IMG/VR virus record: IMGVR_UViG_3300009285_005282
Location: 55,737 to 119,736 of that record
DNA from: a virus
Reading direction: 5' to 3' (one strand)
DNA length: 64,000 nucleotides
Below the pieces are notes generated by a model. The model made no database searches and was not told the origin of the DNA. It saw only the letters and a program-made list of their open reading frames with translations. Positions 4,810-57,927 of the stretch are shown here, piece by piece (positions within the stretch are counted from its first letter, which is position 1; every line of letters starts with the position of its first letter). The position numbers and the translations under genes are program-made.

Positions 4810-4921
4810 GTAGCACGTCCGGCAAAGCTCTACCACCCGGCAGGGGAGTTCCAGGCACCGCCGCGGCAGGAGCGGCGGGGGCATTAGTCCCCCGCAAGCT
4901 GCTGGACACGCTCTGTCCTCC

Positions 4922-5110
4922 TTATACCAATTCCGGGGTCTCCCACGTCCCCATTTCGCTGTCCTCGACGTCGTCCCAGTTGCTGTCGTCGTTGGACTCC
5001 ACCGTGTCTAGGAACTGAAGAAATGCTTCGGAGCACTCCTCCGCGGTCTCGCCAGAGAGGCGCTTGTACCGATGCACGCTCCGGCTCTGAACGAACATCA
5101 CGGACACCAT
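4922..5110 (-). CDS. small acidic protein, last gene of the leftward operon
   Basis: A 62-residue protein. The ATG at 5110 is preferred over an upstream one because TGAGGA sits four bases before it. It begins MVSVMFVQSRSVHRYKRL and has a strongly acidic C-terminal half (NDDSNWDDVEDSEMG). No family recognised. It follows the small gene at 5118-5273 with almost no gap and ends just before the convergent terminator. Confidence 0.5.
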   Translation of the reverse strand: MVSVMFVQSRSVHRYKRLSGETAEECSEAFLQFLDTVESNDDSNWDDVEDSEMGTWETPELV

Positions 5111-24018: not shown

Positions 24019-25878
24019 GTGTTCGGGTCAACCCCAGCGCCAACGCCGACAACGACGAGTGCCCGTCTCGAAGGGCGTATCCGCGGTTCCCTCACGGGTG
24101 TGCGGTACCCCGACCCGTTCTTCGACCTGGCGCACACCTACCTGCCAACCTCGATCCTGGCGTTGTTTCGTTGGTGCAGGTACTACTACCTCACCTCCCC
24201 GCTCATCGCCGCGGCGGTGGACAAGCTCGCTGAGTACCCCATTACCGCGTTGGAGTTCACCGGTAGCAGCACGGAGGTGCACCGGCTGTGGGAGGCGTAC
24301 TTCGAGGACGACCTGCACCTTCGGGAGACGTTGGTCGATATCGGCGTGTTCTACAACTGCTATGGCAACACCATCGGCTCCTTGCACTTTCCAGCCACTA
24401 AGTGGTTGGTGTGTGAGAACTGCCACCACGAGGAACCAGCAACCGCAGCCAAGTACGACTACCGGGGCTGCAAGTTCCATCTGAAGTGCGCGCAGTGCGG
24501 GCACAACGGTCCCGCCGAGGTGCGTGAACGCGCGGTCAAGACCACCAAGGGAGCGCGACTGCTGCTGTGGAACCCGGAGGACATGGAGGTCCGCTACAAC
24601 GAGTTCACGGGTCACTCCACCTACTACTACCGTATCCCGGCCTACCTGCGCACCGCTGTGCGGCTCGGACGGCGGGACATCGTGGACCACTCCCCCCAGG
24701 TGTTCCTGGATGCAGTGCGGGAGGAGAAGGCGGTGGTGCTCAACCCGGAGAACGTGGTGCATCTCCGTCGTCCCTCGATCATGACCGGGCAGTTGAACCG
24801 CGGGTTGGGCATTCCGCTGGTGCTCCCGGTGCTCAAGAATAACTTCTACCTCCAGATTATGCGCAAGGCGCAGGAAGCTGTGCTTGCCGAGCGGTTGGTG
24901 CCCCTCAACATCCTGTTTCCAACCCAGTCCGCGCCGGGCGTGAACCCCTACGAGCTCATGGACCTGAGCCGTTGGCGGGACCAGGTCAACGAGGAAGTCA
25001 ACCACTGGCGCCGTGATCCTAATTACATACCAGTATTACCACTACCAGTTGGCCACCAAATGATCGGCGGGGATGGCCGGGCGCTACTGCTCTACAACGA
25101 GATGCGCTCCGAAGCGGAGACCATCTTGGTGGGAATGGGCATCCCGCCAGAGCTCGTTTTTGGGGGGTTGTCCTGGAGTGCTTCGAACGTCAGCCTGCGG
25201 ATGCTGGAGAACCGATTTCTGCGGTACATCGCCGGGCTGGAGCAGCTACTCAACAGTTTCGTCATCCCCCGTACCGCCGCCCACATGGGCTGGCCCGCGG
25301 TACGGGCGCGGTTCCGACCGTTCAAGATGGCTGACGATCTGCAGCGGTCGGCGTTCCTGTTCCAGCTCAACCAAGCCAAGCTGGTGAGTGACACCACCAT
25401 GCGGCGGGAGACCAACCTCGATCCGGACACCGAGGACGAGCGGCTCAAGAAGGAGGTCAAGTCCAGACTGCACGGGGTGGAAGAACAGCAGATGGCCGAG
25501 GCGCGTATCTCTGGGCAAGTTGGGGTGCTCACCGCCAAGTACCAGGCAAAGGCCCAACAGGTCATGGCGGAGGAGCAACGTCAGATGCAGTCGGGCACCT
25601 ACGGCGCTGCTCCAGGAGAGGAGGGGGCTGGGATGGGACAGGAGGCGGTGGCCCCCGTCGCTGCTCCGGCGGGCCCAGTGCCGCAGATCCTACAGCGGCT
25701 ACAGGGGCTGTCCCCGGAAGCGCAGCAGCAGGTGTTGCAACGGATAGGTCAACAAAACCCCGAGCTGGCCAGCAGCCTGGCGCAGCAGCTTCAACCGGCC
25801 TCCACACCTGCCAGTGACAGCGCGGGCGCTCCACTTCCGGAGCAGCTCCCGCCGAGACGGCAAGCGCAGCTCATCTGA
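24019..25878 (+). CDS. portal protein
   Basis: A 619-residue protein, GTG at 24019. The N-terminal region RYPDPFFDLAHTYLPTSI and the block SPLIAAAVDKLAEYPIT match the start of large-phage portal proteins. LPVGHQMIGGDGRALLL and LVGMGIPPELVFGG are the strongest portal motifs (~residues 345-390). A zinc-finger-like insertion (CENCHHEE and CAQCGH) lies at ~residues 134-160. The C-terminal ~120 residues are Gln-rich and disordered. The portal forms the dodecameric DNA-entry ring and binds terminase and scaffold. Residues ~333-347 are encoded by conspicuously AT-rich codons. Confidence 0.85.
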   Translation: MFGSTPAPTPTTTSARLEGRIRGSLTGVRYPDPFFDLAHTYLPTSILALFRWCRYYYLTSPLIAAAVDKLAEYPITALEFTGSSTEVHRLWEAYFEDDLHLRETLVDIGVFYNCYGNTIGSLHFPATKWLVCENCHHEEPATAAKYDYRGCKFHLKCAQCGHNGPAEVRERAVKTTKGARLLLWNPEDMEVRYNEFTGHSTYYYRIPAYLRTAVRLGRRDIVDHSPQVFLDAVREEKAVVLNPENVVHLRRPSIMTGQLNRGLGIPLVLPVLKNNFYLQIMRKAQEAVLAERLVPLNILFPTQSAPGVNPYELMDLSRWRDQVNEEVNHWRRDPNYIPVLPLPVGHQMIGGDGRALLLYNEMRSEAETILVGMGIPPELVFGGLSWSASNVSLRMLENRFLRYIAGLEQLLNSFVIPRTAAHMGWPAVRARFRPFKMADDLQRSAFLFQLNQAKLVSDTTMRRETNLDPDTEDERLKKEVKSRLHGVEEQQMAEARISGQVGVLTAKYQAKAQQVMAEEQRQMQSGTYGAAPGEEGAGMGQEAVAPVAAPAGPVPQILQRLQGLSPEAQQQVLQRIGQQNPELASSLAQQLQPASTPASDSAGAPLPEQLPPRRQAQLI

Positions 25879-26253: not shown

Positions 26254-26301
26254 ATGAGCTACGGAATCCACGATCACGAGGTGTGCAATGGCGCGGCTTG
26301 A
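26254..26301 (+). CDS. possible 15-residue leader peptide overlapping the RNA polymerase start
   Basis: An ATG at 26254, preceded by GGAGACGGTC, opens a 15-codon frame (MSYGIHDHEVCNGAA) that ends 14 bp inside the polymerase coding sequence in another frame. The polymerase ATG itself has only a weak GAGG before it, so reading of the leader could deliver ribosomes to that start. This is a suggestion from layout only. Confidence 0.3.
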   Translation: MSYGIHDHEVCNGAA

Positions 26302-29300
26302 CCCTAAGGAGAGCTACGAGGCGCTCAAGGATGGGGTGAAGGAGGCTATCTCCAAGACGTTCCCGCACGTGGGGAAGGTCAACACGTTGGAGTTGGAGGG
26401 CATCGACATCCCCGACGAGCTTTCCAGCAGCGACTACGCGGCGCAGAAGCAGGCCAAGCTCAACGAGCGCACCTTCGGTATCCCGGTTCAGGCCACGATG
26501 GTGCTCCGGGAGAACGCTACCGGCAAAGTGCTCGACCGGTCCGTGGTCAAGATCGCCACGTTGCCGAAGATCACCGACCGCTACTCGTACATCACCGCGG
26601 GTACGGAGTACCAGGTGGACAACCAGTGGCGGTTGCGCCCCGGGGTGTACACCAAGGTCAAGCAGAACGGTGACCTGGACTCCTTCTTCAACATCAAGGG
26701 GCGCCCGCTGCACGTCGGGTTCGACCCCAAGACCAGAAAGTTCGATTTTCAGATCGGCGGTGCCGCTCCGCCGCTGTACCCGCTCATGAAAGCGCTTGGT
26801 GTGAGCGACGACACTTTGGAGCGGCAGTGGGGCACGGACATCCTGGCCGCCAACCGAGTGGACACGCGGGGCAAGCCCCACAACCTGCAACGAACGGTTA
26901 TCGACATCGCGCAACGGCTCGATCCTCGGGCGGAGGTTGGGTCCTACGAGCAGGCGGCCTCGGTCATTCGAGCCAACCTAGAAAGCTCGGCGCTGCACCC
27001 GGAGGTCACCCAGCGGACGTTGGGGAAGTCCATCGACCGTATCACCCCCGAGGCGATGCTGCTCTCCACCGGACGGCTGTTGGGGATCGCGAAGGGGAAG
27101 GAGCGGGAGGACGTCCGTGACTCTCAGTTGTTCAAGGACCTGCACAGCACGGAGGACTTCGTCAAAGAGCGCATCACGGGACACGCCAGTGTTATCGCAC
27201 GGCGGGTGGGGAATAACCTGGACCGTAAGGGAAAGATCCGGGAGATCGTCGTCCCGGACGTCTATGACCGCCCCATCCGCGAGTTCTTCGGCAAGGTGTC
27301 GCTGGCCAACTCGGCCGCGCAAACCAACCCGTTACGAATGATCGGCGGGCAGATGCGCACCACCATCGCTGGCGAGGGTGGGGTGGCCGACGCCAACCGC
27401 ATCACCGAAGACGCCAAGTTGGTGGACCCTAGCCACTTCGGAGTGCTGGACCCGCTGCACACGCCGGAAAGTTCAGCCACTGGTGTGTCCTTACAGCTCG
27501 CGCTTGGCGCCCGCAAGCAGGGTAACCGCGTGGTCGTCCCTCTGATCGACGTCAAGGATGGAAAAACCAAGCTGGTGGACACCTCCGTGATGTACGACTC
27601 GACCGTCGCGTTACCGGACTCGGTCAAGAAGCAGGGCGACAAGTTCGTCCCCGTATCCGGGTCCAAGGTCGTGGCGAGTGTGCCCGGCAACGCCATGCTC
27701 CCGGTAGCGATGAAGGACGTGGACTACATCGTTCCGCGCAGCGGGCAGATGTTCTCGATGGCAACCAACCTGGTGCCCTTCATCAACAGCGACTCCCCGA
27801 ACCGGGCGACGATGGCTGGACGCCACATGGAGCAGGCCATCCCGGTGGTGAACAGTGAGCCCCCGCTGGTGCAAAGTATGTTGGGTTCGGTCTCCATGGA
27901 CACGGTCATCGGCCGCTTTGCCTCCACACGGGCGCCATTGGACGGGAAGGTCACGAAGATCACTGCGGATCACATCACCGTGGCCGACGCGGACGGAGTG
28001 GAGAAGCATATCCCCGTCTACAGTCACTTCCCGCTCAACGACAAGAAGGGCTATATCCACAGCACCCCGGTGGTCAAGGTCGGGGACACCGTGAAAAGCG
28101 GTCAGCTCCTGGCGGACAGCAACTTCACGAAGGGCGGCGTGTACGCACCAGGTACGAATCTTAGAACCGCGTATATGACGTGGGCCGGAAGGAATTTTGA
28201 GGATGGAGTAGTTCTTAGCGAAACAGCCGCCCAGAAGCTCGCCAGCGCGCACATGTACAAGAAGGGGCTGGCGACGCGAGACCTGGAGCTCCCTGGCAAG
28301 AAGAAGTATCACGCCTACTACCCGTTGCAGAAGGAGCAGCTGGAAAAGTTGGATGACACCGGCGTGGTCCGGGTCGGGCAGCGGGTCAAGCCCGGCGACA
28401 CCCTGGTGGCTGCGCTCGCAGAGCGAACGCTTACCACGGAGGAGCAGCGGCTCAAGCTGCTGCACAACAGCCTGGTCAAGCCCAAGAAGGATAAAGCAGT
28501 CACTTGGGACGAGGACTACGAGGGGGAAGTCGTCGAGGTGCATCGCACCCCCAAGCGTGTGCAAGTCCACGTAAAGACTGTGGAACCGATGGAGATAGGG
28601 GACAAGCTCTGCTACGACGAACAGACAGATGTCCTGACCCTAACTGGGTGGAAACCCGTGTCCGAGGTGACATGTGAGGACCTTGTGTGCTGCCTGGTTG
28701 GGGAGGAGGTTGTCTACCAGCACCCCATAGCGGTCTTCTCCTATCCCACCGGCGGCCGAATGTACGTGATCCGTTCCCAGCAGGTAGACCTGTTCGTTAC
28801 CGCGGCGCATCAGATGTACGTGCGCTTACGCGGGGCACAGCAGTATCAGTTACTGCCCGCAGAGTCTCTTTTCGGCAAGAGGGTGCGTTACCGCAAGGAC
28901 GGTGTGTGGCGGGGGGAACACCGGCAGAGCATCACGCTTCCAGCGGTGACGGTTCCGGATAGACGTTACAAACTCGGTCAGCGGGACACCGCGCCTCTAA
29001 CGCTGGACATGAGCACGTACCTGCTATTGCTTGGTGCGTTCTTGGCTGACGGAAACTGCGTGTGCATTCCAAACAGCGGAACCTACGGCATCGAGTTCAG
29101 CAAGGTACGGGAACCTAACCGAGCCGAGCTGCGTGCGGCGTTGACCACGGCGGGGATCTCGTGGACGCCAGCTAGCAACAACACGAAAACGCGGCTTCAT
29201 TCGGTTACGTTGCTTCACCATTTCCAGCAGTTTGGGCATGCTGCGGATAAGTTCATACCGGACGCCATGTTCGGTCTTCCCCCGGAGCAACTCGCGGTGC

Positions 29301-32300
29301 TGTTCCATTGGCTGTTCACGTGGGGGGATGGGCACACCAAAAACGGTAAACCTGTTTCTCAAAGTACGGTATCCCCTCGTTTAGCGGACGGTCTGCAGCG
29401 TTTGGCGCTGCACTTGGGAATGGCCGCGAACGTTACCGTGCTTCACGACGCGGGGTTGACGACCATCAAGGGGCAAGAGTGCCATGTTCAAAAAACCTAC
29501 GATGTGCGCATGGTCACAACGAAGCTGCACCCGCAGGTCAACCACGGGCACGTACATCAACAGCGTGCGCAAACTGAGGAGATCGTTGAGGACTACGACA
29601 AGCCAGTTTACTGCGTTATGGTACCAGAGCACGTCATCTACGTCCGTCGTAACGGCAAGCCGGTGTGGAGCGGGAACAGTGGTCGCCACGGCAACAAGGG
29701 AATCACGACCCAGATTCTCCCAGATGCGGAAATGCCCCATGATAGGGAGGGACGCCCAATGGAGATCCTGCTCAACCCCATCGGGTTGGCCGGCAGGATG
29801 AACGTGGGGCAGATTCTGGAGACCGCGGCGGGAAAGCTCGCCGAGAAGACGGGGCAGACCTACCAGGTCTCCAACTTCACCAGCACGGACAACCTGACCG
29901 ACGTGCAGAACGCGCTCAAGAAGGCCGGCATCTCGGACAAGGAGGACCTGATCGACCCCAATACCGGCAAGGTCATTCCTCAGATCCTGGTGGGGAAGCA
30001 GCAGATCATCAAGCTGGAGCACCAGGTAGACAAGAAGATGCTCTCCCGAAGTCGAGACGCCTACGACCACAACCTCGTACCCCGAGGTGGTGGAAAGCAC
30101 GGCGCGCAGTCCTATGGAGCATTGGGGCTGTACGCGCTGTTGGCGCACGGCTCCCGCGCCAACATCCGAGAAGCGCAGACGTGGCGGTCGGACCGGGCGC
30201 AGGGCGGCGACACCGACGAGCTCTGGGGAGCGCTGCAATCTGGCGAGCTCCTCCCACCCCCGCGAAAGACCTTCGCGTACCGGAAGTTCAACGCTTACCT
30301 GAACACCTTGGGGGTGAACACCGAGAAGGACGGAAACTCGCTGACCCTGGTGCCGATGACCGACAAGCAGGTTCTGGAGATGTCCAACGGCGAGCTCACC
30401 GACGCGGGGAGGGTGCTGCGGATGAAGAGCCTAACGCCGGAGCCAGGGGGGCTGTTCGACGAAAAGATCACCGGTGGCTTGTCTGGTCAGAAGTGGGCGC
30501 ACCTCACCCTTACCCACCCAGTCCCCAACCCGTTGTTCGAGAAGGCGGTCATGAGCCTGGCTGGAATCCGCGGTCCGCAGTTCGATTCGCTGATCCAAGG
30601 GCAGAACGGAGTGACCGAGCAGGGAGCGATCGTCGGTCCGGGGGTGCAGGGTGCGCTCTACGGCCCCCAGTCGATCGAACGTTTGCTGTCCAAGGTGAAC
30701 GTGGGCACGGAGTTGGAGCGGGAGACCGCACGACTGCCTCGGCTCAAGGGGCAGCTGCTCAATGAAACGGCGCGCAAGGTAAAGTACCTACGGGCGCTGC
30801 AGAAGGCCAACCTGACTCCGGTCGACGCCTATATGACGAAGCACGTTCCAGTGCTGCCCCCCGCCATGCGCCCGGTGTCGGTGATGGATGACGGGTCGTT
30901 GCAGACGGACGACCTCAACCAGATCTACAAGTCGCTGGCGTTGGTGAACCAGCAAGCTGGCGCCTTTCCCGAGGGGACGCCGTGGTCGCTCAAGGCGCCA
31001 GTCGCGGCGAGCGTGTACGACCACGTGAAGTCCCTAGCCGGTCTCGGGGGCTCGCTCAACCGCAAGCACCCGGGCATCCTGGACATCATCGCTGGGCGTA
31101 ACAGCCCGAAGGAGGGCTACGCGCAAGCGGTGCTCATCAAGCGCAAGCAGGACCTTACCGCACGCAGCACCATCGTTCCCGACCCGGGGCTGGCGTTGGA
31201 TGAGGCGGCGCTGCCCCGCAAGCTCGCCAAGGAGATGTACAAGCCCTTCATCGTGGCGGAGCTGCGGCGGGCGACCGGGCGCAGCCCCTTGGAGGCCAAG
31301 GAGCTGATTGACAAGGATGACCCGCTTGCAGTGAGCGCACTGGACCGGGTGGTACAGCAGCGGCCTGTCCTACTGAAGCGGGACCCCGTGCTGCACAAGT
31401 ACGGTGTGCAGGCGTTCAAGCCGCGACTCACCGACGGGCGAGCAATCCAGATACACCCGCTGGTGTGCAGCTCGTACAACGCTGATTTCGACGGGGACGC
31501 CCAGGTAGGAGCGGTGTTTGCTTTCCTCCCAAATGCGTTATATGATGCAGAATGTGGCTTCTGGTCACAGCGGGAGGTAGGGATGACGGCGCGATTTCAA
31601 GAGACAGTGAGCTATGACACCGAGGGTGGTCATATGGTCATATGTGACCTGAAAGACTTCCCCCACCTGGAAGCGAAGACCACTCGGGGGCATATCGACT
31701 ACCACCCGGTGCCCGTGGGGGTCAAGGTGGTAGCCCTCGACGAACGGGACGGGCCGGTGTTGGCGGAGGTGACCGGCTGGTCACTCCATCGGAAGCGGCG
31801 GGTAGAGATTGTAACATTGGGTAGCGGGCGGCAAATCGTCACCGACGACGACGAGCGTGCCGTGTACGGGGTTGACGCGTCCTCACTGGAATGGTGTCGC
31901 CGTCGCCCTCGGGAAGCGCGGGACCAGTTTGTCCCGGTCGTGGATCAGACACCCGTGTCAGACGTGGTCCAGTGGAAGACCTGGCCAGTAAGATCCAGTA
32001 GTCCTCGGCTGCACGCTCAAGTGCCGGGAAACTTCGACTTTGGCTATTTTCTCGGCGCCATCGTGGGCGACGGGTGGGCAGCCCGCGTAGACGGGGACCC
32101 ACATGACGTGTGCCTGGGTTCCTCGATTGCGGAAGTCAGCAAGCGCTGGACTGACGCGGCGCAGGTGCTGTTTCAAGAGCCAGTGGCCTCGTGCTGGATA
32201 TGGAGAGCACACGGGAAGCTAGGGGCCTCGGAGGGTAGCGGGTCGGTGACAATTTCGTGTCGGGACCTCGCACGCTTTGTGGATGACGTGGTCGGACACG

Positions 32301-35026
32301 GCGCGGAGAACAAGCACCTGCCCCCGTTCTTTCGTACTGCACCTCGGGAGTTTGTGGTTGGCCTGCTGAGCGGCTTGTGGGATACGGACGGGTCAGTGTC
32401 GTTCTCCGAAGCTAAGAACAAGCCGCAGTTCATGTGCAGCTACTCTTCCAACAGCCTACAGCTTGTTCAGGAGATTCAGAGTCTTCTACGGACGTGGGAG
32501 ATTAGCTCGACGGTCACCCCCACGAAAACTCCTAAGGGTACACCCGCGTGGGTGCTCGGCGTGTCCACCGTCGACCTTTTCAAGTCTGATTTGGAGCTAA
32601 GGCTAGCCCACCCCGACAAGGCGACGGTGCTCCGACGGTTCTTTGACGGACCTCTTCCGGACGACCGCATGGCCTACAGCCGCAACCGTTTGGTGCCGCT
32701 CCCCGCCGCCTTAGCCCGAGAGCTGCGAGTGCTGGTGGGGTGCCACGAGCGTACGAGCATGTACAGCACGCTGAGCAAGGCCGTACAACGACAGTACATA
32801 TCCAAAGTCATGGCCGAAGACGTGCTACGGGTGGTGCACAAGTGCTCCCATCCGTTGTTCGAGCGATGGCGACAGGTAGTGCAGTTGAAGGGTGTGCACT
32901 TTGAGAGAGTGGAAAGTGTCGTAACCACAACTGTCGAAGAAGACGGGTACGACCTTACTGTTCCCGGCTACGAGACGTTCATGAACGTCGACGGGGTTGT
33001 ACTGTCCAATACCATGTCCGCCTTCGTCCCTATATCGGCAGAGGCAGTCTCCGAAGCGCGCAACATGTTTCCCTCCTCCAGCCTTCTCAGCCCCTCTACC
33101 GGCAAGCTCGCCTTCGCTCCTTCCCATGAACAGCAGGTGGGGCTGTTCATGGCCAGTCAGGTAAACGCGGGGTCGGTGAAGCACTTCACGGACCGTGCAG
33201 CGCTGGACGTAGCGTTCAATGCGGGGAAGGCCAAGTTGAACGACGTCGTGACCGTCGGGTCCGTGAGAACGACCCTCGGACGGCTACGCATCAACGACCA
33301 CCTCCCAACCTCAATGCAGGGAGGGCGCATCCTGACCGATCTCGGGTATCACCTTACCAACAAGGAACAGTCAGGGCTGTTCGCCGAGCTGGTCAAGACG
33401 GACCCGAAAGGGTACGCCGTGGCGGTCAACAAGCTCAAGGATCTCGGCAACCACGTGGCCTCCACCGAAGGGTTCACTTTTGGGCTGGAGGACATCAAGG
33501 TCCACCGGGGTATTCGAGATCCCATCCTGCACGCCGCAGAACGGCAGACAGCGGGGCTGGACCTGACCAAGCCGAAGGACCTGCAGAAATACGTCGACGT
33601 CTACGGCAAGGCTATGACCCAGCTCGACACCGCATTGTTAGAACAGGCGCGGAGGGGCTCGGGGCAGCTCGACCGGTTGGAGGTCTCAGCGGGTATCAAG
33701 GGCAAGGCGTACCGACAGCTCACTGGAGCGCCAGTGCTGTTCGTGGACGGCAAGGGAGACGTGGTGCCCAACCCAGTCCGCCGTTCCTACTCCGAGGGGC
33801 TGACGACCACCGACTACTGGGCGGCCACCAGCGGCGGGCGGAAGGGCATCATCCAGAAGGTGCAGTCGGTAAGCGAGCCGGGGTACATGACCAAGATGAT
33901 GACCAACTCCACCATCGACCAGATCGTGGACACTGACGACTGCGGGACCGAACGGGGCATTGCCCTTTCGGTGACCGAGCCGGACATCATTGGGCGGTAC
34001 ACCACCGCTCCCATCAACATGGCGCCGGGTAAGTCGCTACCTGCGGGAACGCTGCTCACCCCCGATCTGGTCACGCGCATCCGCAACAACCGGGGCAACG
34101 CCAAGGTCGTCGTGCGCTCTCCGCTACGGTGTAACCACGCCACCGGACTCTGCGCTCGGTGTGCGGGGCTGAACGAACACGGTCAGCCGCACGATCTTGG
34201 CACCAACGTGGGGGTGCTCGCCTCTCAGGCCATAGGTGAGCGCGGCACGCAGCTCGCAATGCGGGCCTTTCACGCAGGTGGAGTCTTCGAGCCCGGCGGT
34301 GCTTCCTCCCTCACCGCGGGGGGTATGGACCGCGCACTTGACCTATTGTACCTCCCGCAGAAGGTCAAGGGCTCAGCCGTACTGGCACCTCTTTCAGGCA
34401 CGGTAACTCAGGTACGCAAGGACCCTGCTGGAGGGGTACGGGTTGCGGTCCGTTCCGGCGCGGCGGCAACCGAGGTGTACATCCCGCAAGACCGCGCCCC
34501 CTTGTCGACGCTGCGCGCTGGCGCCACGGTAAAGCGCGGCGACTTGCTCTCCTCCGGACCGGTCAACCCGCACGAGCTTTTACCACTAGCAGGGGTGAAC
34601 CGTACGCAGGGACACTTGGCAGAGGAGCTGCATGACCTGTATGGCAACTACGGCATCCGTCGGAGGCACTCCGAGCTCCTAGTGCGGGCGGTCACAGGGG
34701 TGACCAAGATCGAAGACCCGGGGGACCATCCGGGATTCCTGCGTGGTGACTACGCCAACGTGGCCGCGGTGCAGCAGTGGAACAAGCAGAACAAGACCGG
34801 ACGACCTGTCCAGCACGCGCCGGTGCTGCGTGGCGTCAAGCAGATTCCCTTGGACGTGCAGGAGGACTGGCTTGCACGGTTGAACCACAACCGTCTCCAG
34901 AGTACGCTGGTGGAAGCGGCGCAGCAGGGATGGTCGTCCGATCTGCACGGGACGCACCCCATCCCGGGGATTATTTACGGTGAGGAGTTCGGGAAAGGAA
35001 CTCCGGACAAACCATGGAGGTACTAG
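26288..35026 (+). CDS. fused beta-beta' multisubunit-type RNA polymerase with two inteins
   Basis: A single 2912-residue frame from the ATG at 26288. The first half is beta-like: FGVLDPLHTPESSATGV (~385), the block GTNLRTAYMTWAG with NFEDGVVLSE (~621-645), and GDKL joined after splicing to SGRHGNKG (~774/1131). The second half is beta'-like: YNADFDGD (1730-1737) with the three catalytic Asp, joined after splicing to TMSAFVPISAEA. A Cys set follows (RCNHATGLCARCAG, ~2614), then the trigger-loop region ASQAIGERGTQLAMRAFHAGG split over ~2644-2664. Removal of the inteins (356 and 504 residues) would leave about 2052 residues, shorter than bacterial beta plus beta'. No alpha, omega or sigma gene is recognised here. 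It lies among virion genes, so packaging in the capsid is possible. Fusion of the two subunits in one chain is the main oddity. Confidence 0.92.
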   Translation: MARLDPKESYEALKDGVKEAISKTFPHVGKVNTLELEGIDIPDELSSSDYAAQKQAKLNERTFGIPVQATMVLRENATGKVLDRSVVKIATLPKITDRYSYITAGTEYQVDNQWRLRPGVYTKVKQNGDLDSFFNIKGRPLHVGFDPKTRKFDFQIGGAAPPLYPLMKALGVSDDTLERQWGTDILAANRVDTRGKPHNLQRTVIDIAQRLDPRAEVGSYEQAASVIRANLESSALHPEVTQRTLGKSIDRITPEAMLLSTGRLLGIAKGKEREDVRDSQLFKDLHSTEDFVKERITGHASVIARRVGNNLDRKGKIREIVVPDVYDRPIREFFGKVSLANSAAQTNPLRMIGGQMRTTIAGEGGVADANRITEDAKLVDPSHFGVLDPLHTPESSATGVSLQLALGARKQGNRVVVPLIDVKDGKTKLVDTSVMYDSTVALPDSVKKQGDKFVPVSGSKVVASVPGNAMLPVAMKDVDYIVPRSGQMFSMATNLVPFINSDSPNRATMAGRHMEQAIPVVNSEPPLVQSMLGSVSMDTVIGRFASTRAPLDGKVTKITADHITVADADGVEKHIPVYSHFPLNDKKGYIHSTPVVKVGDTVKSGQLLADSNFTKGGVYAPGTNLRTAYMTWAGRNFEDGVVLSETAAQKLASAHMYKKGLATRDLELPGKKKYHAYYPLQKEQLEKLDDTGVVRVGQRVKPGDTLVAALAERTLTTEEQRLKLLHNSLVKPKKDKAVTWDEDYEGEVVEVHRTPKRVQVHVKTVEPMEIGDKLCYDEQTDVLTLTGWKPVSEVTCEDLVCCLVGEEVVYQHPIAVFSYPTGGRMYVIRSQQVDLFVTAAHQMYVRLRGAQQYQLLPAESLFGKRVRYRKDGVWRGEHRQSITLPAVTVPDRRYKLGQRDTAPLTLDMSTYLLLLGAFLADGNCVCIPNSGTYGIEFSKVREPNRAELRAALTTAGISWTPASNNTKTRLHSVTLLHHFQQFGHAADKFIPDAMFGLPPEQLAVLFHWLFTWGDGHTKNGKPVSQSTVSPRLADGLQRLALHLGMAANVTVLHDAGLTTIKGQECHVQKTYDVRMVTTKLHPQVNHGHVHQQRAQTEEIVEDYDKPVYCVMVPEHVIYVRRNGKPVWSGNSGRHGNKGITTQILPDAEMPHDREGRPMEILLNPIGLAGRMNVGQILETAAGKLAEKTGQTYQVSNFTSTDNLTDVQNALKKAGISDKEDLIDPNTGKVIPQILVGKQQIIKLEHQVDKKMLSRSRDAYDHNLVPRGGGKHGAQSYGALGLYALLAHGSRANIREAQTWRSDRAQGGDTDELWGALQSGELLPPPRKTFAYRKFNAYLNTLGVNTEKDGNSLTLVPMTDKQVLEMSNGELTDAGRVLRMKSLTPEPGGLFDEKITGGLSGQKWAHLTLTHPVPNPLFEKAVMSLAGIRGPQFDSLIQGQNGVTEQGAIVGPGVQGALYGPQSIERLLSKVNVGTELERETARLPRLKGQLLNETARKVKYLRALQKANLTPVDAYMTKHVPVLPPAMRPVSVMDDGSLQTDDLNQIYKSLALVNQQAGAFPEGTPWSLKAPVAASVYDHVKSLAGLGGSLNRKHPGILDIIAGRNSPKEGYAQAVLIKRKQDLTARSTIVPDPGLALDEAALPRKLAKEMYKPFIVAELRRATGRSPLEAKELIDKDDPLAVSALDRVVQQRPVLLKRDPVLHKYGVQAFKPRLTDGRAIQIHPLVCSSYNADFDGDAQVGAVFAFLPNALYDAECGFWSQREVGMTARFQETVSYDTEGGHMVICDLKDFPHLEAKTTRGHIDYHPVPVGVKVVALDERDGPVLAEVTGWSLHRKRRVEIVTLGSGRQIVTDDDERAVYGVDASSLEWCRRRPREARDQFVPVVDQTPVSDVVQWKTWPVRSSSPRLHAQVPGNFDFGYFLGAIVGDGWAARVDGDPHDVCLGSSIAEVSKRWTDAAQVLFQEPVASCWIWRAHGKLGASEGSGSVTISCRDLARFVDDVVGHGAENKHLPPFFRTAPREFVVGLLSGLWDTDGSVSFSEAKNKPQFMCSYSSNSLQLVQEIQSLLRTWEISSTVTPTKTPKGTPAWVLGVSTVDLFKSDLELRLAHPDKATVLRRFFDGPLPDDRMAYSRNRLVPLPAALARELRVLVGCHERTSMYSTLSKAVQRQYISKVMAEDVLRVVHKCSHPLFERWRQVVQLKGVHFERVESVVTTTVEEDGYDLTVPGYETFMNVDGVVLSNTMSAFVPISAEAVSEARNMFPSSSLLSPSTGKLAFAPSHEQQVGLFMASQVNAGSVKHFTDRAALDVAFNAGKAKLNDVVTVGSVRTTLGRLRINDHLPTSMQGGRILTDLGYHLTNKEQSGLFAELVKTDPKGYAVAVNKLKDLGNHVASTEGFTFGLEDIKVHRGIRDPILHAAERQTAGLDLTKPKDLQKYVDVYGKAMTQLDTALLEQARRGSGQLDRLEVSAGIKGKAYRQLTGAPVLFVDGKGDVVPNPVRRSYSEGLTTTDYWAATSGGRKGIIQKVQSVSEPGYMTKMMTNSTIDQIVDTDDCGTERGIALSVTEPDIIGRYTTAPINMAPGKSLPAGTLLTPDLVTRIRNNRGNAKVVVRSPLRCNHATGLCARCAGLNEHGQPHDLGTNVGVLASQAIGERGTQLAMRAFHAGGVFEPGGASSLTAGGMDRALDLLYLPQKVKGSAVLAPLSGTVTQVRKDPAGGVRVAVRSGAAATEVYIPQDRAPLSTLRAGATVKRGDLLSSGPVNPHELLPLAGVNRTQGHLAEELHDLYGNYGIRRRHSELLVRAVTGVTKIEDPGDHPGFLRGDYANVAAVQQWNKQNKTGRPVQHAPVLRGVKQIPLDVQEDWLARLNHNRLQSTLVEAAQQGWSSDLHGTHPIPGIIYGEEFGKGTPDKPWRY
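28610..29677 (+). other. intein 1 in RNA polymerase, at the GDK-GRHGNKG motif of the beta half
   Basis: A 356-residue in-frame insertion (protein residues 775-1130). It starts with Cys (CYDEQTDVLTLTGWKPVSEV, block A), has DLFVTAAHQMYV (block B with T-x-x-H), two LAGLIDADG-type motifs (LLGAFLADGN and LFTWGDGH) and ends PVYCVMVPEHVIYV then VWSGN. The next residue is Ser. The penultimate residue is Gly instead of the usual His. Excision joins GDKL to SGRHGNKG, rebuilding a catalytic beta motif. The second endonuclease motif is divergent, so homing activity is uncertain. Confidence 0.9.
31499..33010 (+). other. intein 2 in RNA polymerase, directly after NADFDGD
   Basis: A 504-residue insertion (protein residues 1738-2241) between NADFDGD and TMSAFVPIS. 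It has LAGLIDADG-type motifs FLGAIVGDGW and LLSGLWDTDGS. A C-terminal block GYDLTVPGYETFMNVDGVV ends LSN and is followed by Thr. The N-terminal boundary forced by the alignment gives Ala as residue one (AQVGAVFAFLPNALYDAECG), not Cys or Ser, and the block B-like segment reads IVTDDDERAVYG with Asp where His is expected. The first ~65 residues (to DLKDFPHLEAKT) look like an extra segment. The splicing route is therefore unusual or the intein is impaired. Confidence 0.8.
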
Positions 35027-35028: not shown

Positions 35029-35430
35029 ATGGATCGCGCTTCGGAGATCATGTACCGAGCGTTCTTCGACGAGTTGGGGCACATCGAACGACACCGGCTG
35101 TCCAAACTGGCGGTAGATGCAGCAGCGGCTGCACAGCTCCCCGGTTTCATGAGCCGTGTCGGGCAAGGGTTGGTCAACCTGGGACAGCACGGGGCCGGTG
35201 CGGCAGGTAAGGCGATTCGTGCTGGGTACACCAACGCCGCCCAAGGCTTTGCAAAAGCCAACCCCGACGTGGGCTGGGTAGGACGGAACTGGCAGGGCGT
35301 GAAGGGCGCGCTACGAACGCCCGAAGGGGCAGCTGCCGCTCTCGGCGCCGGTGTGCTCGGCACGACCGCAGTCGGTGCTGGTGGGCTGGGCTACTTGCAC
35401 GGACGCAGCACAGCGGCCCCGCGGTACTGA
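35029..35430 (+). CDS. small glycine-zipper virion-type protein
   Basis: A 133-residue protein. The ATG at 35029 is preferred because GGAGGT lies seven bases before it, overlapping the end of the RNA polymerase gene. Near the N-terminus is RHRLSKLAVDAAAAA, an example of the recurring Lys-x-Ala motif. The C-terminal third has a Gly/Ala hairpin (AALGAGVLGTTAVGAGGLGY). Basic overall. Co-transcribed with the polymerase and the spike gene, so it is probably a virion component. Confidence 0.6.
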   Translation: MDRASEIMYRAFFDELGHIERHRLSKLAVDAAAAAQLPGFMSRVGQGLVNLGQHGAGAAGKAIRAGYTNAAQGFAKANPDVGWVGRNWQGVKGALRTPEGAAAALGAGVLGTTAVGAGGLGYLHGRSTAAPRY

Positions 35431-36557
35431 TGCCCCGCTCCCGCGCCATGTCCCCCACGCAGCGGGGGACCCAGACCGTTGCCATCGAGCAAGGTCAGGT
35501 CATCAATGTCGATGTAGCGCGCTTCACCGTGGACGTGCGGACGAGCCGTACCCATCGGCTATTGCTCGACTTGAAGGTCGGAGCACCCTATCTGCACTAC
35601 AACGCCGGTGAGGGGTTCTCGGTCATGCCCGAAGTAGGAGCGCTGGTGCAGGTCTGCCTGCCGAGTGACGACGTCCCCTTCATTCTCTGCTTCGTGACCG
35701 CGTTCGAGCGTGCGGACACGGACACCTCCAGCGAGCAGTCCCAGGCGACTTTTCGTGCTGGCCGCCCCGACATGGAACAGGGGGACATGCTGCTCCGTAC
35801 CAGGGATGGCAACCAACTCTGGCTGCACCGGGGCGGGGTCGTGGAGATCGGGGCCACTCGGTTGGCGCAGCGAGTGTACGTCCCACTTACGAACCTTATC
35901 CGGGACGTGTTCGAGAACTACGAAGCCCTCTCTACCGCCGGGGAGATGTACTGGACCACCACCAGGTCCGACAGCGACCCGGATGATACGGCACGGGCGG
36001 TGTTCACGGTTGGGGTGCGGGACGCCGCGCAGGACTCCGCGAGCTCGGTGATGGTCAAGCTCGGCCACGTCGACGACACCATACGTGTTCGCTGCGTGGT
36101 AGCTCCCAACAGTATCGACAGCCGAACCGGCGAGGTGGACGGTGACGCCGTGTACGAGCTGACCATCAACGAGGACGGCGACGTTGCGGTCACTACGGCC
36201 GGCGACGTCACCGCCGACGTGGACGGCGAGTTGGAGCTCACTGTCTCCGGTGAGGCCAACGTCACCACCGGGAACCGCACCGACACCGTCAACGGTAACC
36301 TCAGTGTGCAGGTGAGCGGCGAACACGAGCTGCGCGCTGCTACGAGTCGAGAGACGGTGAGCGGGTCAAAGGTGCTGGACAGCCCGTTGGTTTTGCTTGG
36401 CGGTCCCGGCGCCCATGATGCGATGATGCTGGTGACAAGCTCGGTCATTGCCTTCATGGCGGCCCACACGCACGACGTGCTGGGCTCGGCCACTGGCCCC
36501 CCGAGCCCTTCGGTCACCCCGGCGCAGATGTCCGCACGTCGTGTAAAGGGGGTGTGA
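35430..36557 (+). CDS. baseplate central spike (gpV/gp45-like)
   Basis: A 375-residue protein whose ATG overlaps the previous stop (TGATG). Residues ~20-95 form a beta-barrel-like domain (INVDVARFTVDVRTSRTH) resembling the OB fold of spike proteins. A middle Asp/Thr/Val-rich repeat region (VTTAGDVTADVDGELELTV and so on) is typical of the triple-stranded beta-helix needle. The C-terminal AAHTHDVLGSATGPPSPS carries the H-x-H motif and G-x-P-P-S end found in membrane-puncturing spikes, where His residues bind iron at the tip. Indicates a contractile-type or long tail with a piercing device. Confidence 0.75.
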   Translation: MPRSRAMSPTQRGTQTVAIEQGQVINVDVARFTVDVRTSRTHRLLLDLKVGAPYLHYNAGEGFSVMPEVGALVQVCLPSDDVPFILCFVTAFERADTDTSSEQSQATFRAGRPDMEQGDMLLRTRDGNQLWLHRGGVVEIGATRLAQRVYVPLTNLIRDVFENYEALSTAGEMYWTTTRSDSDPDDTARAVFTVGVRDAAQDSASSVMVKLGHVDDTIRVRCVVAPNSIDSRTGEVDGDAVYELTINEDGDVAVTTAGDVTADVDGELELTVSGEANVTTGNRTDTVNGNLSVQVSGEHELRAATSRETVSGSKVLDSPLVLLGGPGAHDAMMLVTSSVIAFMAAHTHDVLGSATGPPSPSVTPAQMSARRVKGV

Positions 36558-41990: not shown

Positions 41991-44900
41991 ATGTCCACGC
42001 AGGACCTAGAACAGTACCAACGCGCCATCAGCGCCCTTCACTCCCAGGAGCTCGACCAGACGCTGGAAGACCAGATCGACGCCGAGATGGCTCGGTTGAA
42101 CGAAGAGGACTTCAGCGACGCCGCGATGGAGGAGGCGGTCTTTCCGCAGCTTGTCTCAGCTCGTGCAGAGGCGGAACAGGTTCACGTGCTCCCCTCGGAG
42201 TTTACAGAGTTCGCTCAGCGCATCCCGGTTGGCGGAGAGATCACCAGGTTCAGCTTCGAGGGGAGGCGTTACCTCAAGCAGCCGTACGATACCAGCGCGA
42301 ATCGTATCCTACTAAAATTTTCTCGTCAAAGTGAGAAAAGTCTAGTAGAGCACTCCATGGTCCTTCTTGCTGACGGCAGCGAGACGCCAATCTCGGAGGT
42401 GCGGGTTGGCGACTGGGTGGTGACCATGCTCCCCGACGGAGCACACACCAGCGTCAGCCGAGTGACGTGGAAGTCCGAACGTTACCGGAAACCCTGTGTG
42501 CGTATCCGTACCCAGCGATGCCTGTCCGCCGACGCGGCGGTGACGCACCCCTTTCGCCGATGGGGGCGCTGGACACCCGCGGGGGAGCTCAAGATTGGGG
42601 ATCGTGTTGCCACGGTGCGCCGTGCTGGTCTTTTCACGTCCGAAGCACCAGCACTAGCTGACAACCACATCAAGTTCGTTGCGTACATGATCGGGGATGG
42701 TTGCTGCGGCTGCTCGAACAATTTTTCCTTTACCCAGCAACCTGGTTTGGTGCTGGACGACTTCCTCACCATTGCGCACCAAGAGCAGTGGCCAGTCCGA
42801 ATAGCCGATAAGAGCGGGACACGCGCCAAGCAGGTACACGTTGGCAAGATTACAACCGCACGCACATGGCTGAAGGAGGGGGGCTTGTGGTTGTGCCGGT
42901 CTGCCGATAAGGCTCTTCCGGCGTGGGTGTGGGACCTGCCCCGAACGCAGGCCGCGCTCTTTCTGAATCGGCTATGGTCCACAGACGGGAGCGTTCTTCT
43001 GCACGGTCACCAGTATGAAATTGTCTACTCCTCCATTTCTCGCACGTTGGTCAGGGGGGTGCAGCGTCTGCTGTGGAAGTTTGGCATCCCGTCACGGATA
43101 CGCGAGCTACACCCACAAGTGTACCGAGGGTCGAATAAATGTGCGTACATTCTTGCAGTACAAACACAACCGGGGATAGTGCAGTTTCTCACCGAGGTGG
43201 GGGCACTTGGTAAGTCGGAAGATATTCCACTTCCCTCGATGGCACCAAACAACAACCAAGACACGTTCCCGGTGGAGATCACACAGGACCTACACGCTGT
43301 CAACGCCAGTGGTGGCAGCGGGGGCCGCGGACGCAACGCCACGTACTCGTTGAGCTCGGCGGGTTTGACCGCGACACCAAGTTACCCACCGTCACGTAGG
43401 CGGTTGCAGGAGTATGTTGATTTCTTTCGTGGTCACCCGCGTTACGACCAGAACCTGGTGGACCAGCTTGCCGCGCATCTTGACACGGACCTGTACTGGG
43501 ATCGGGTTATTGGCGTGGAGGACATTGGGGAGCAGTGGTGTTACGACATCGCGATTGAAGAGGATGAGAGCTTTGTCACGGACGGGCTGGTAACACACAA
43601 TTCAACCCTACTAGGTAACAAATTACTGGCTTACGCGGCGATCATCCCCGCGTTCGCCGGGCTGTACGTTTCCTCCTCGGCCACCCAAGCGCAGGTGTTC
43701 TCGGTTGACCGGTTGAAGGACCCCATCGAGCTGTCGCCCGAGCTTGGGCGGTTGGTCCACAACAACCTGTCGCAGAACGTTCTGTTCAAGCAGTTCCGCA
43801 ACCGTTCCCAGATCCGTATCCGGTACGCTTTCCTACATGCCGACCGCACCCGCGGTATCCGGGCGGACGCGGTGACGGTTGACGAGATCCAGGACATCCT
43901 TTTCCACAACATCCCCGTTATCGAGCAGTGCGCCAGCCACTCCGAACTGAAACTGTTTTGCTACAGCGGCACCCCTAAGAGCCTGGACAACACCATCGAA
44001 GTGTACTGGGCCAACCACTCCACTCAGAACGAGTGGGCAGTGCCCTGTGAACGTCACGGCGTCCCTGGGAGACCGAGCTCATGGCACTGGAACATCCTGG
44101 GCAGGGCTAACGTTGGCAGGACCGGACCTATCTGCGCCAAGTGCGGTGCGCCGATTGACCCCATGCACCCCCGGGCACAGTGGGTCAGCCTGCAACCACG
44201 GACGGACGTCAATCAGGACCGGGTGACATTCGAGGGCTACCACGTCAGTCAGCTCATGGTGCCGTGGGTGGTTGCCAACGCCGCGACCTGGCATGAGTCG
44301 ATCATCTTTCCGTTGGAGACCTATGAAGTTGCTCGGGTCAACAACGAGGTGTTCGGGCTGTCCTACGACTCAGGCACACGCCCCGTCACCCGTAAGCACT
44401 TGGAAGCGTGCTGCCGCGACGAGATCAGCATGGACCGCGTGCGGGAGCTCGCGCAGGAGGCGCAGCAGTACGGTGGGGTCGCGGCGGGTATCGACTGGGG
44501 TGGGGGCGGTGACCAGGGGGCTTCGTACACCGTGCTCTCGCTGGGCGGGTACTTGGGGCATGAGTTTCAGATCTTCTTTCTACATCGGTTTATCGGTGAG
44601 GACCTGGACCCCCATCGGCAGCTGCTCAAGATCGCCCAGCTGCTCAACGATGTGCAGTTCCGTATCTGCGGCTGCGACTACGGCGGGGGCTTTCACCCCA
44701 ACGCGTGGCTAGAACGTAACTTTCCCCGCAAGGTGCTGCGGTACCAGTACGCGGGCAACCCCAAGGCGAAGGTCAAGTGGGAACCCGCGCTGGGTAGGTT
44801 CATCCTGCACCGCACCGAGGTGATGAGCGATGTGTTCAACGCGCTGCGCAGCCGCCGGATCTGGTTGCCCCGAGTTGCGGAGTGCCGCTCCCCGTACTTG

Positions 44901-45089
44901 GAGGACGTCCTCAACATCTTCTCCGAGTACTCCCGGCTTACTAACATGACCCAGTACAAAATCAGCCCCGGCAAGTCCGACGACACATTGCACTCCATCC
45001 TGTACTGCCTTCTTGCCTCATTCGTCATCCGACGTCGGCTCGACCTGATCGTCCCGCTCAGCCCGTTGGATGTGCAGCTGCCTCAGTAA
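41991..45089 (+). CDS. large terminase subunit with intein in Walker A
   Basis: A 1032-residue frame from the ATG at 41991; about 611 residues after intein removal. The N-terminal ATPase shows RQSEK joined after splicing to STLLGNKLL (Walker A). ADAVTVDEIQDIL is Walker B with its acidic pair, and KLFCYSGTPKS is the coupling motif. A zinc-knuckle-like CAKCGAP lies between the domains. The nuclease domain has AAGIDWGGGGDQG, RICGCDYGGGFHPN and KSDDTLHSILYCLL with the metal-binding Asp residues. The enzyme cuts concatemeric DNA and pumps it through the portal. No small subunit is adjacent. The promoter appears to abut the ATG. Confidence 0.92.
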   Translation: MSTQDLEQYQRAISALHSQELDQTLEDQIDAEMARLNEEDFSDAAMEEAVFPQLVSARAEAEQVHVLPSEFTEFAQRIPVGGEITRFSFEGRRYLKQPYDTSANRILLKFSRQSEKSLVEHSMVLLADGSETPISEVRVGDWVVTMLPDGAHTSVSRVTWKSERYRKPCVRIRTQRCLSADAAVTHPFRRWGRWTPAGELKIGDRVATVRRAGLFTSEAPALADNHIKFVAYMIGDGCCGCSNNFSFTQQPGLVLDDFLTIAHQEQWPVRIADKSGTRAKQVHVGKITTARTWLKEGGLWLCRSADKALPAWVWDLPRTQAALFLNRLWSTDGSVLLHGHQYEIVYSSISRTLVRGVQRLLWKFGIPSRIRELHPQVYRGSNKCAYILAVQTQPGIVQFLTEVGALGKSEDIPLPSMAPNNNQDTFPVEITQDLHAVNASGGSGGRGRNATYSLSSAGLTATPSYPPSRRRLQEYVDFFRGHPRYDQNLVDQLAAHLDTDLYWDRVIGVEDIGEQWCYDIAIEEDESFVTDGLVTHNSTLLGNKLLAYAAIIPAFAGLYVSSSATQAQVFSVDRLKDPIELSPELGRLVHNNLSQNVLFKQFRNRSQIRIRYAFLHADRTRGIRADAVTVDEIQDILFHNIPVIEQCASHSELKLFCYSGTPKSLDNTIEVYWANHSTQNEWAVPCERHGVPGRPSSWHWNILGRANVGRTGPICAKCGAPIDPMHPRAQWVSLQPRTDVNQDRVTFEGYHVSQLMVPWVVANAATWHESIIFPLETYEVARVNNEVFGLSYDSGTRPVTRKHLEACCRDEISMDRVRELAQEAQQYGGVAAGIDWGGGGDQGASYTVLSLGGYLGHEFQIFFLHRFIGEDLDPHRQLLKIAQLLNDVQFRICGCDYGGGFHPNAWLERNFPRKVLRYQYAGNPKAKVKWEPALGRFILHRTEVMSDVFNALRSRRIWLPRVAECRSPYLEDVLNIFSEYSRLTNMTQYKISPGKSDDTLHSILYCLLASFVIRRRLDLIVPLSPLDVQLPQ
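42339..43601 (+). other. intein inside the Walker A motif of the large terminase
   Basis: A 421-residue insertion (protein residues 117-537). It begins with Ser (SLVEHSMVLLADGSETPI, block A), has a block B-like AAVTHPFRRW and two LAGLIDADG-type motifs (VAYMIGDGCC and FLNRLWSTDGS), and ends CYDIAIEEDESFV then GLVTHN followed by Ser. Excision joins RQSEK to STLLGNK, restoring the P-loop, so unspliced protein could not bind ATP normally. Both sides of the insertion are written in AT-rich codons unlike the rest of the gene. Confidence 0.92.
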
Positions 45090-56314: not shown

Positions 56315-56782
56315 ATGGCAGTCACGTTTCGTTTGGTGGGACCGTACACCCACCTGAGCCTCCCGGTGATGAATTTCGCCCCGGAGGACCCGACTCTGCT
56401 CAACTACAACAACGCGAACCCGTTGGAGCAGGGGGAGTTTCTGACCATCAACGCCAACTATCGTGTCGCGCGCGCTGCCAATCCTGGTGCGCGTCCCGGT
56501 CCCTACCCGCTCTTCACTGAGAAGGGAAGGTCGGATACCCAGGGTATTGCTGGCGGCAAGGTCGCCGTCATCGTGGGTGGCGGTTACATCGCCGAGTCGA
56601 AGATCATCAACGTGGCCGCAGCCCCCGCGCTGGGCGCCGCGTTGGAGGTCGCCAACATCACGTGGAGTGCGCTCACCAAGAGCGGGCTCCAAACTTTCGC
56701 CACCGGTGTCATCGTTGGCTATGTACTACGCCCCGCCGCCTCCAACGACGGCTGGCTGCAGTACATCTCGATGACGGTGTGA
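56315..56782 (+). CDS. probable capsid decoration / head-stabilising protein
   Basis: A 155-residue protein, ATG at 56315 after AAGGAGTGAGG. Beta-rich throughout (FLTINANYRVARAANPG, VAVIVGGGYIAESKII) with no Cys. It lacks the Lys-x-Ala motif of its neighbours. The gene directly precedes the major capsid gene, with 11 bp between them, the usual place of decoration proteins such as gpD-type or Psu-like stabilisers. The name rests on position, size and beta content, not on a family match. Confidence 0.5.
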   Translation: MAVTFRLVGPYTHLSLPVMNFAPEDPTLLNYNNANPLEQGEFLTINANYRVARAANPGARPGPYPLFTEKGRSDTQGIAGGKVAVIVGGGYIAESKIINVAAAPALGAALEVANITWSALTKSGLQTFATGVIVGYVLRPAASNDGWLQYISMTV

Positions 56783-56793
56783 GGAGAGATACC

Positions 56794-57927
56794 ATGAGCG
56801 CAATACCGAATGATGTGTTCAACCGTCTCTTCATGGACAAGCTCAGCACCACCGAGGGTCAAGAGAAGATCGCGGAGTACGGTGGCGAGTACATCCGTGA
56901 CCACCTGCGTGAGGCGCAGTTCTCCCGAGGGATCATCCCGCCGGAGAACATTTCCGCGAACGACCCGCGGGTTCAGATCTCCATGAATCACGACACCCTG
57001 GTCGTCTTGGAGATGCTGGAGCCGCAAAGTCGAGCCATGGCGCTCAACTTCCGTGGTGTCGCGGACGTGCAGCTCATCCGGGCGTCCCGCATGGAGATCC
57101 CGTTCTTCATGATCAGCAGCCTCCGGTTTGAGGCTTACGAGGAGGAGTTGCTGGTGTACCGCAACTTCAAACTCACCAAGATCCTGGAGGACAACCTCGG
57201 CAAGGACATCGGAGACGTCGAGGACCGTGAGTTCACGATCCACGTCGACGCCGCCGTCCAGGCCCTGCAACAGGAGGCGAATGGCGGGGTGGTGACGTCG
57301 CTGCACCAAACCACCATTGCGGCCGGCACCGTCGTGGAGACGGGGGTGCGCAAGGGTGAGCTCGCCCGAGTAGACGCCAACAACAACGCCGTGGTGTGGC
57401 CAATGCAACGGCCCGACGTCGTCAGCGGCCACAAGCTGCTCGACGGTACTCGGCGGCGGTGCGAGAAGGTCCTGCTCAGCGAATCGGACTTCGACGACAT
57501 CAACTCCTGGACCATCGACGACATGGGCTCGCCCAAAGAGTCGGAGTCTCTGATCGACGGGTTCAAGGGTCCGACCCTCATTGGACGCGGCTACGTGCGG
57601 ACCATCAAGACCGAGATCCTCAAGCCCGGCAACCTCTACTTCTTCACCGGGCCGGAGTGGCTGGGGCGGTTCTACATCCTGAACAACGTGAAGTTCTACA
57701 TCGACAAGGTGGGGAACAAACTCACGTTCTTCGCGTGGGAGGACATCGCCCTGTCACTGGTCAACATCGCCAGCGTGCGCAAGGTCGAGACCTACTCGGG
57801 TGACGCTACCGCGAACGACGCCAACGGCATTCGGGCAACGGTAAGCCCGGTCGCCGAGACGGCGCTTGGGGCGCAGTTCAACCGAGTGGACGACGGGGTG
57901 TTCTTCCCGCAGGTCAACTTCTTCTAG
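56794..57927 (+). CDS. major capsid protein (probable)
   Basis: A 377-residue protein, ATG at 56794 with GAGGAGAGATACC upstream. Near the N-terminus is EGQEKIAEYGGEYIRD, a possible protease site that would remove about 24 residues. The body (NISANDPRVQISMNHDTLVV; EPQSRAMALNFRGVADVQLI; VDAAVQALQQEANG) has the mixed alpha/beta make-up of HK97-fold capsid proteins of large phages. It follows the protease, scaffold-type and decoration-type genes and is followed by a strong terminator, as expected for the most highly expressed virion gene. No alternative capsid candidate is visible. Confidence 0.75.
   Translation: MSAIPNDVFNRLFMDKLSTTEGQEKIAEYGGEYIRDHLREAQFSRGIIPPENISANDPRVQISMNHDTLVVLEMLEPQSRAMALNFRGVADVQLIRASRMEIPFFMISSLRFEAYEEELLVYRNFKLTKILEDNLGKDIGDVEDREFTIHVDAAVQALQQEANGGVVTSLHQTTIAAGTVVETGVRKGELARVDANNNAVVWPMQRPDVVSGHKLLDGTRRRCEKVLLSESDFDDINSWTIDDMGSPKESESLIDGFKGPTLIGRGYVRTIKTEILKPGNLYFFTGPEWLGRFYILNNVKFYIDKVGNKLTFFAWEDIALSLVNIASVRKVETYSGDATANDANGIRATVSPVAETALGAQFNRVDDGVFFPQVNFF

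Follow-up and report, generated by a model that had tools for sequence, protein, structure and literature searches.

A single-chain bacterial-type beta-beta' RNA polymerase in the virion gene cluster of a phage family with a co-occurring sigma-70-family gene

To our knowledge, the RNA polymerases (RNAPs) carried in phage virions are either made of many chains without a recognised sigma factor (phiKZ) or are divergent single chains (crAss, P23-45, N4). Taken separately, packaged RNAPs, phage RNAPs in a single chain and phage homologues of beta/beta' are all known already. The phiKZ/AR9-type phages encode beta and beta' homologues, with a virion-packaged form, and an SNF2-type helicase linked to, and correlated with, the RNAP genes; several proteins together make up beta, and several others beta', and a sigma factor has not been reported for the group (PMC7824862). 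The crAss-like phi14:2 gp66 and the Thermus phage P23-45 gp64/gp96, of which gp96 is a virion enzyme, are two-barrel polymerases in a single chain, very divergent and grouped with RNA-interference polymerases (PMC10770324). The mReC phages (Weinheimer and Aylward 2020) are Caudovirales whose bacterial-type beta/beta' homologues stand apart from those of cells; they were described as subunits, and the main text of that paper does not use the words "sigma", "alpha" or "intein" and uses "fused/fusion" only of crAssphage (PMC7481178).

Salmonella phage Arash (PMC10585845) has orthologues of the polymerase (gp206 and gp216), portal, capsid, terminase and sigma (gp10) proteins described below. Beta and the N-terminal part of beta' (beta'N) form one chain of 1525 aa in gp206, and the C-terminal part (beta'C) is a separate protein, encoded by a gene of 606 aa about 4.8 kb away, unlike in the single-chain members studied here, where beta'C is also in the chain. 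The Arash polymerase is about 30% identical to ours, no inteins were seen in it, and its genes are annotated only as "subunit beta". The Vibrio phages D69, D148 and D181 have homologues over nearly the whole length, adjoining a portal homologue and annotated as hypothetical; beta'C is again separate, with beta fused to beta'N in D69, and in D181, which has a sigma match, the beta part is further broken by a homing endonuclease gene. Judging by profile matches, the beta' break in Arash and D69 falls after NADFDGD, near the cyanobacterial rpoC1/rpoC2 junction. In the open-licence part of PubMed Central, subscription papers and preprints being outside the search, we came across no account of phages with a complete bacterial-type beta-beta' fusion and a sigma factor.

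The window analysed here is a stretch of 64,000 nucleotides, positions 55,737 to 119,736 of the IMG/VR virus record IMGVR_UViG_3300009285_005282 (119,736 bases, C1 in Table 1). An earlier note, made from the letters alone, had read one 2912-codon frame in it as a bacterial-type beta-beta' polymerase in a single mature chain of about 2050 residues, lying in a virion gene cluster, and this reading was borne out. The frame is open throughout without internal stop, and the frame break that would have spoken against the fusion was looked for and not found. Pfam domains of RNA polymerase follow each other in the order beta then beta' (Rpb2_6, 1e-52; Rpb1_5, 6e-25; Rpb1_2, 4e-21; Rpb2_3), with LAGLIDADG matches within the inserts. 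All the motifs that had been listed (HTPESS, NFEDGVVLSE, GDKL/SGRHGNKG, NADFDGD, the cysteines and ASQAIGERGTQLAMRAFHAGG) are in their places, and removal of both inteins leaves a chain of 2052 aa.

Table 1. Features of the polymerase locus and of the possible partner genes. Positions are those of the window, except where prefixed with C1 (whole record) or L076.
Feature	Position	Strand	Remarks
TGGTATAAG box	4921..4929	-	Sole copy in the window; other four contig copies left of it
Portal protein	24019..25878	+	Directly upstream of polymerase; weak PHROG match; Arash gp204 orthologue
Single-chain beta-beta' RNAP gene, two inteins	26288..35026	+	Frame, Pfam, motifs
Beta part, N-terminal extein (aa 1-774)	26288..28609	+	NCBIfam rpoB matches
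HTPESS motif	27458	+	
NFEDGVVLSE motif	28193	+	
GDKL / SGRHGNKG motif	28598 / 29678	+	Split by intein 1
Intein 1 (aa 775-1130, 356 aa)	28610..29677	+	Cys1; ends GN before Ser
Beta part, C-terminal extein	29678..30355	+	Ends ...LNTLGVNTEKDGNSLTLVP; border read from alignment
Beta' from N-terminus MTDKQVLEMSNGEL through NADFDGD	30356..31498	+	N-terminal zinc domain missing
Beta' clamp-helix region	30848..31048	+	Aligned to solved beta' chain 8i23_D
NADFDGD catalytic metal-binding loop	31478..31498	+	Invariant across family alignments
Intein 2 (aa 1738-2241, 504 aa)	31499..33010	+	LAGLIDADG; directly after NADFDGD
Beta' C-terminal extein	33011..35026	+	Bridge helix, zinc cluster, trigger-loop region
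Zinc cluster cysteines	33938-34162	+	
Trigger-loop region	34220-34282	+	ASQAIGERGTQLAMRAFHAGG at 34220
Baseplate-hub/tail-lysozyme-like virion gene	35430..36557	+	Downstream of polymerase
Conserved module gene, 656 aa	36838..38808	+	No function assigned; 115 of 119 relatives
Large terminase with intein	41991..45089	+	
Major capsid protein	56662..57927	+	Arash gp226 orthologue
SNF2-type helicase, 1461 aa	C1:28223-32608 (L076:8223-12608)		Arash gp217 homologue; two genes before sigma
Sigma-70-family ORF, 252 aa	C1:33372-34130		Outside the window, about 22 kb to its left

The chain has the beta and beta' barrels with NADFDGD of a bacterial two-barrel RNAP and is recognisably bacterial; it does not have the layout of separate beta and beta' chains on an alpha dimer, being a single frame for which no alpha was found. 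The beta part (...LNTLGVNTEKDGNSLTLVP) runs straight into beta' (MTDKQVLEMSNGEL) without a linker, a border that we read from a weak alignment match. The family profile aligns to bacterial beta' chains of solved structure, starting at the clamp and reaching close to the C-terminus; the catalytic loop, the clamp-helix region, the bridge helix, zinc 2 and the trigger-loop region are kept, four of the five extein cysteines forming the zinc 2 site, and there is no zinc 1 (the N-terminal beta' zinc domain). In bacterial RNAP, the clamp helices are the docking site of sigma region 2. The structure model of a relative (L016, residues 330-1500, covering both barrels and the junction; mean pLDDT 86, pTM 0.76) has a pair of long helices where the clamp is expected, and its top PDB matches are bacterial beta chains. 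Among predicted viral proteins, its top matches were giant-virus and phage RNA polymerase subunits of at most 1463 residues, and no comparable full fusion was found among the matches listed. The same relative scored 493 bits with the NCBIfam bacterial rpoC model, 74 bits with archaeal rpoA1 and 372 bits with rpoB. Catalytic activity is inferred, without biochemical data.

Intein 1 splits the GDKL/SGRHGNKG motif in the beta barrel, a site at which two relatives (L007 and L008) also carry inserts. Intein 2 has Ala as its first residue and ends with SN before Thr; since position 1 has no Cys, Ser or Thr, its splicing appears uncertain from the sequence, and splicing in the polymerase is in any case inferred. 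Inteins lying right after NADFDGD or NADFDGN were also observed in six relatives (L065, L007, L012, L067, L057 and L230); their first residue is Gln in L065 and Ser or Cys in the others, and several of the inteins at this site terminate in Asp, not Asn. Intein-like domains are present as well in the terminase and in a virion-cluster gene (50175-53300, plus strand), so that the inteins of the window phage probably number four or more.

The fused chain is no singleton but the norm across a large family of tailed phages. Searches of viral contigs yielded 67 loci by protein and at least 80 loci by alignment, two sets that overlap, and a complete closed single frame is present in at least 122 IMG/VR loci corresponding to at least 87 distinct sequences. 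Among the matches listed, 79 of the 87 distinct frames are without insert and measure 2048-2235 aa, the other eight having inserts; in one locus at a contig end (L048), the frame is broken within beta. The genes around the polymerase are conserved too: of 123 relatives, 117 have a portal homologue upstream, and of 119 relatives, 116 have a baseplate-hub-like gene downstream, these counts being loci rather than independent lineages and including some duplicate contigs. The earlier placement of the gene between the portal and the spike was right for the portal, whose Arash orthologue gp204 was detected in virions, and loose for the "spike", which is baseplate-hub or tail-lysozyme-like. In BLASTP searches, the portal, polymerase, terminase and capsid proteins of the window are each homologous, as best match, to those of Arash; orthologues of portal, capsid, terminase and sigma are shared with Arash, and of portal and sigma with the Vibrio phages. 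Elsewhere in the window, two adjacent pentapeptide-repeat proteins of 321 aa (45392-46357 and 46422-47387, minus strand) are 56% identical, apparently through tandem duplication.

We inferred a careful tree from 38 rows and 1635 columns, with 15 of the rows bacterial, among them the naturally fused Helicobacter anseris, leaving out AR9 because of its long branch. The family, Arash and Vibrio D69 were united on one branch with 100/100 support, and all 15 bacterial rows, fused Helicobacter included, were set off by another branch; a quick tree with 66 rows agreed. The polymerase is therefore not placed inside a host clade, which the earlier note had named as a possible refutation. Whether Arash and the Vibrio phages branch inside or outside the single-chain group was unresolved (83/44), so we make no claim about the direction of beta'C splitting. 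The trees did not include phiKZ-type or crAss-type enzymes or archaea, and the root and age of the clade were outside their scope.

Compared with the phiKZ/AR9-type enzymes, the window polymerase is one chain instead of several proteins, and its family has a sigma gene. It shares two barrels in a single chain with the crAss and P23-45 enzymes, but not their high divergence without bacterial similarity: most of bacterial beta/beta' is kept at the profile level, and a sigma-family gene co-occurs. T7-type RNAP (PF00940) gave no match in 17 records, and none in the control genomes either. Like the mReC phages, the family has beta/beta' homologues apart from cells, with the NADxDGD motif. The capsid hallmark of mReC, PF07068 (gp23-type MCP), was found in none of 15 family records including that of the window and in all five other RNAP-encoding phages tested, two of these matches falling short of the family cut-off. 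An overlap with mReC is nevertheless not excluded, because MCPs are known for only 8 of the 97 mReC contigs (PMC7481178).

The earlier note had seen no alpha or sigma partner. As to alpha this still holds, since no match over cut-off was obtained in 23 records (controls matched in 13 of 14), although the use of host alpha by the polymerase is not excluded. As to sigma it holds for the window only, as a sigma-70-family gene lies on the same contig, outside the window. The encoded protein is 32% identical to Arash gp10 across most of its length; it matches the SigB/F/G model at 1e-8, below the model's own cut-off, and sigma region 3 above cut-off (9.5e-9), and the profile of its family matches SigA chains at up to 1.8e-19. 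Its structure model, folded from an alignment of window and fetched-locus sequences only (two rows from the phages collection were left out), matches PDB sigma factors with low TM-scores and flexible domains. We consider it a member of the sigma-70 family, regions 2 to 4 being homologous to known sigma factors. With a five-row profile, a sigma match was found in 31 of 32 family records (partial at contig ends in G011 and G006) and was missing only from G008. There is no Pfam sigma region-2 match above cut-off in this contig or in the family record G001, which leaves the gp10-like protein as the only sigma seen in these two. Core-sigma binding and sigma-directed initiation are inferred, without assay or complex model. 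The gene for the SNF2-type helicase has relatives next to polymerase genes: Arash gp217 directly follows the beta'C gene, and a gp217 homologue directly follows the polymerase in L221. Residues 944-1348 of the helicase weakly match an ATP-dependent DNA ligase profile.

By exploring the data we found a box, TGGTATAAG, of which Arash has 18 copies, this contig 5 and the part of G001 that was read 8, for expected numbers of about 1.1, 0.16 and 0.02, respectively. All 18 Arash boxes are on the minus strand and 14 of them precede an annotated gene start by 10-62 nt; the printed P of 1e-14 is only approximate, as the gene starts close to boxes were entered by hand from annotation tables and the background rate is an estimate. 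A ribosome site plus start follows within 85 nt in 17 of 18 boxes in Arash, 5 of 5 in this contig and 7 of 8 in G001 (29 of 31 in total), against 32-37% of random positions, and the base after TGGTATAA is G in 18/24, 5/5 and 8/9 cases in the three phages. Over 32 family records, the box occurs 70 times and the reversed word 16 times; over seven other RNAP phages the counts are 7 and 24. The exact form is not family-wide, being missing or nearly so in many of the 32 records, and the gene calls give no clear gene start after the single box of the window. Short-word counts in 86 upstream regions revealed no clear promoter motif alone. That the box is a promoter remains a hypothesis, its use as such and its reading by the sigma protein being inferred.

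Two kinds of repeat were also observed. Six near-identical intergenic elements lie on the minus strand left of the window (C1:10258, 18884, 20166, 26635, 27364 and 27867), each with the layout GCCGC-loop-GCGGC followed by AATTCCTTAG; two of them just precede TGGTATAAG boxes. This hairpin-like element, to which the short-word counts had led, was set aside as a promoter candidate because relatives lack it: it was not found in the relatives searched or, as an extended exact pattern, in viral contigs. In Arash, a repeat of some 150 bases occurs five times (near 26628, 66375, 100131, 138478 and 173252), seen as repeated 13-mers and bounded by inverted AAACGTTGTAACC.

Starting from the observed fused frame, its family, the tree placement, the homology and co-occurrence of sigma and the enrichment of the box, we consider it likely, short of certain, that the phage has a holoenzyme that is packaged in the virion, lacks alpha and consists of one core chain and a phage sigma, with TGGTATAAG-box promoters of its own and no need of host RNAP. 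The two inteins would be spliced out to give a 2052-residue chain forming both catalytic barrels; its partner would probably be the phage sigma-70-family protein, without detectable alpha, and the SNF2-type helicase may work with this core. Core and sigma would probably be made alongside the virion proteins, packaged and delivered with the DNA, after which the enzyme would transcribe phage genes from the box promoters without the host enzyme. The suggestion of the earlier note that the polymerase may be packaged receives strong, though indirect, support from proteomics of purified Arash particles, in which gp206 is the most-detected protein, gp216 is the fifth and sigma gp10 is present (PMC10585845). 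For the window phage itself packaging can only be inferred by homology, no proteomics being available for any single-chain member.

The Arash data also leave room for the strongest rival, in which the phage RNAP is active but not packaged and serves middle or late genes after being made during infection, its detection in particles being carry-over of an abundant protein. The Arash authors themselves raised carry-over for the enzymes in their particles, where 116 proteins were reported, metabolic enzymes among them (PMC10585845). We relied on unique peptides, because some spectrum counts in this uneven table do not fit the peptide counts (the primase, for example, has 2 unique peptides and 932 spectra). 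By this measure, gp206 (128), gp216 (40), helicase gp217 (38) and sigma gp10 (24) rank with the portal (32) and the MCP (30), whereas the count is 2 for each of primase, DNA ligase and two other helicases (PMC10585845); in addition, the polymerase gene stands in the portal-to-baseplate cluster family-wide. We thus regard carry-over as unlikely, if still a serious alternative. We give decidedly less credit to a phage core that uses host sigma or host alpha, the gp10-like protein having another role. Such a division of labour would fit a sigma gene that does not adjoin the polymerase gene and a protein that does not conserve SigA's region 2.3 tryptophan pair, but not the near-constant presence of sigma in family records, its detection in Arash particles, or its being the only sigma found in this contig and G001. 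The final base also differs, TGGTATAAG ending in G where the host -10 consensus ends in T.

The enzyme could be inactive in the window phage if intein 2, interrupting the chain after NADFDGD, cannot splice; the Ala at its first position, like the Gln of L065, gives some ground for this. The reading frame is unbroken, however, the catalytic residues and the exteins on either side are intact, relatives have Ser1 or Cys1 inteins at the same site, and class 2 inteins, which have Ala1, are known to splice; we find this reading improbable. Recent capture of a host fused rpoBC would account for bacterial profiles scoring far above archaeal ones, and Helicobacter offers a natural fusion. Against it, all sampled bacteria including Helicobacter anseris lie across a 100/100 branch, and in a scan of one genome per species over 84,980 bacterial and archaeal species the best 80 matches were ordinary bacterial RpoB/RpoC of many phyla, about 27-31% identical. 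As the trees place the phage clade outside all sampled bacterial RpoB/RpoC, we rejected recent host capture, to which we attach almost no weight.

A packaged single-chain core with its own sigma thus remains our preferred reading for the window phage. Its extension to the whole lineage, every member packaging the fused chain and a dedicated sigma, possibly with the SNF2 helicase, and starting transcription at TGGTATAAG independently of host RNAP, seems to us an evenly balanced question. The predictions can be tested in Arash, a cultured relative. If true, this reading would explain how such phages could begin infection without the host enzyme, and it would provide a simple two-protein system in which to study the roles of alpha, of the zinc 1 domain and of subunit separation.
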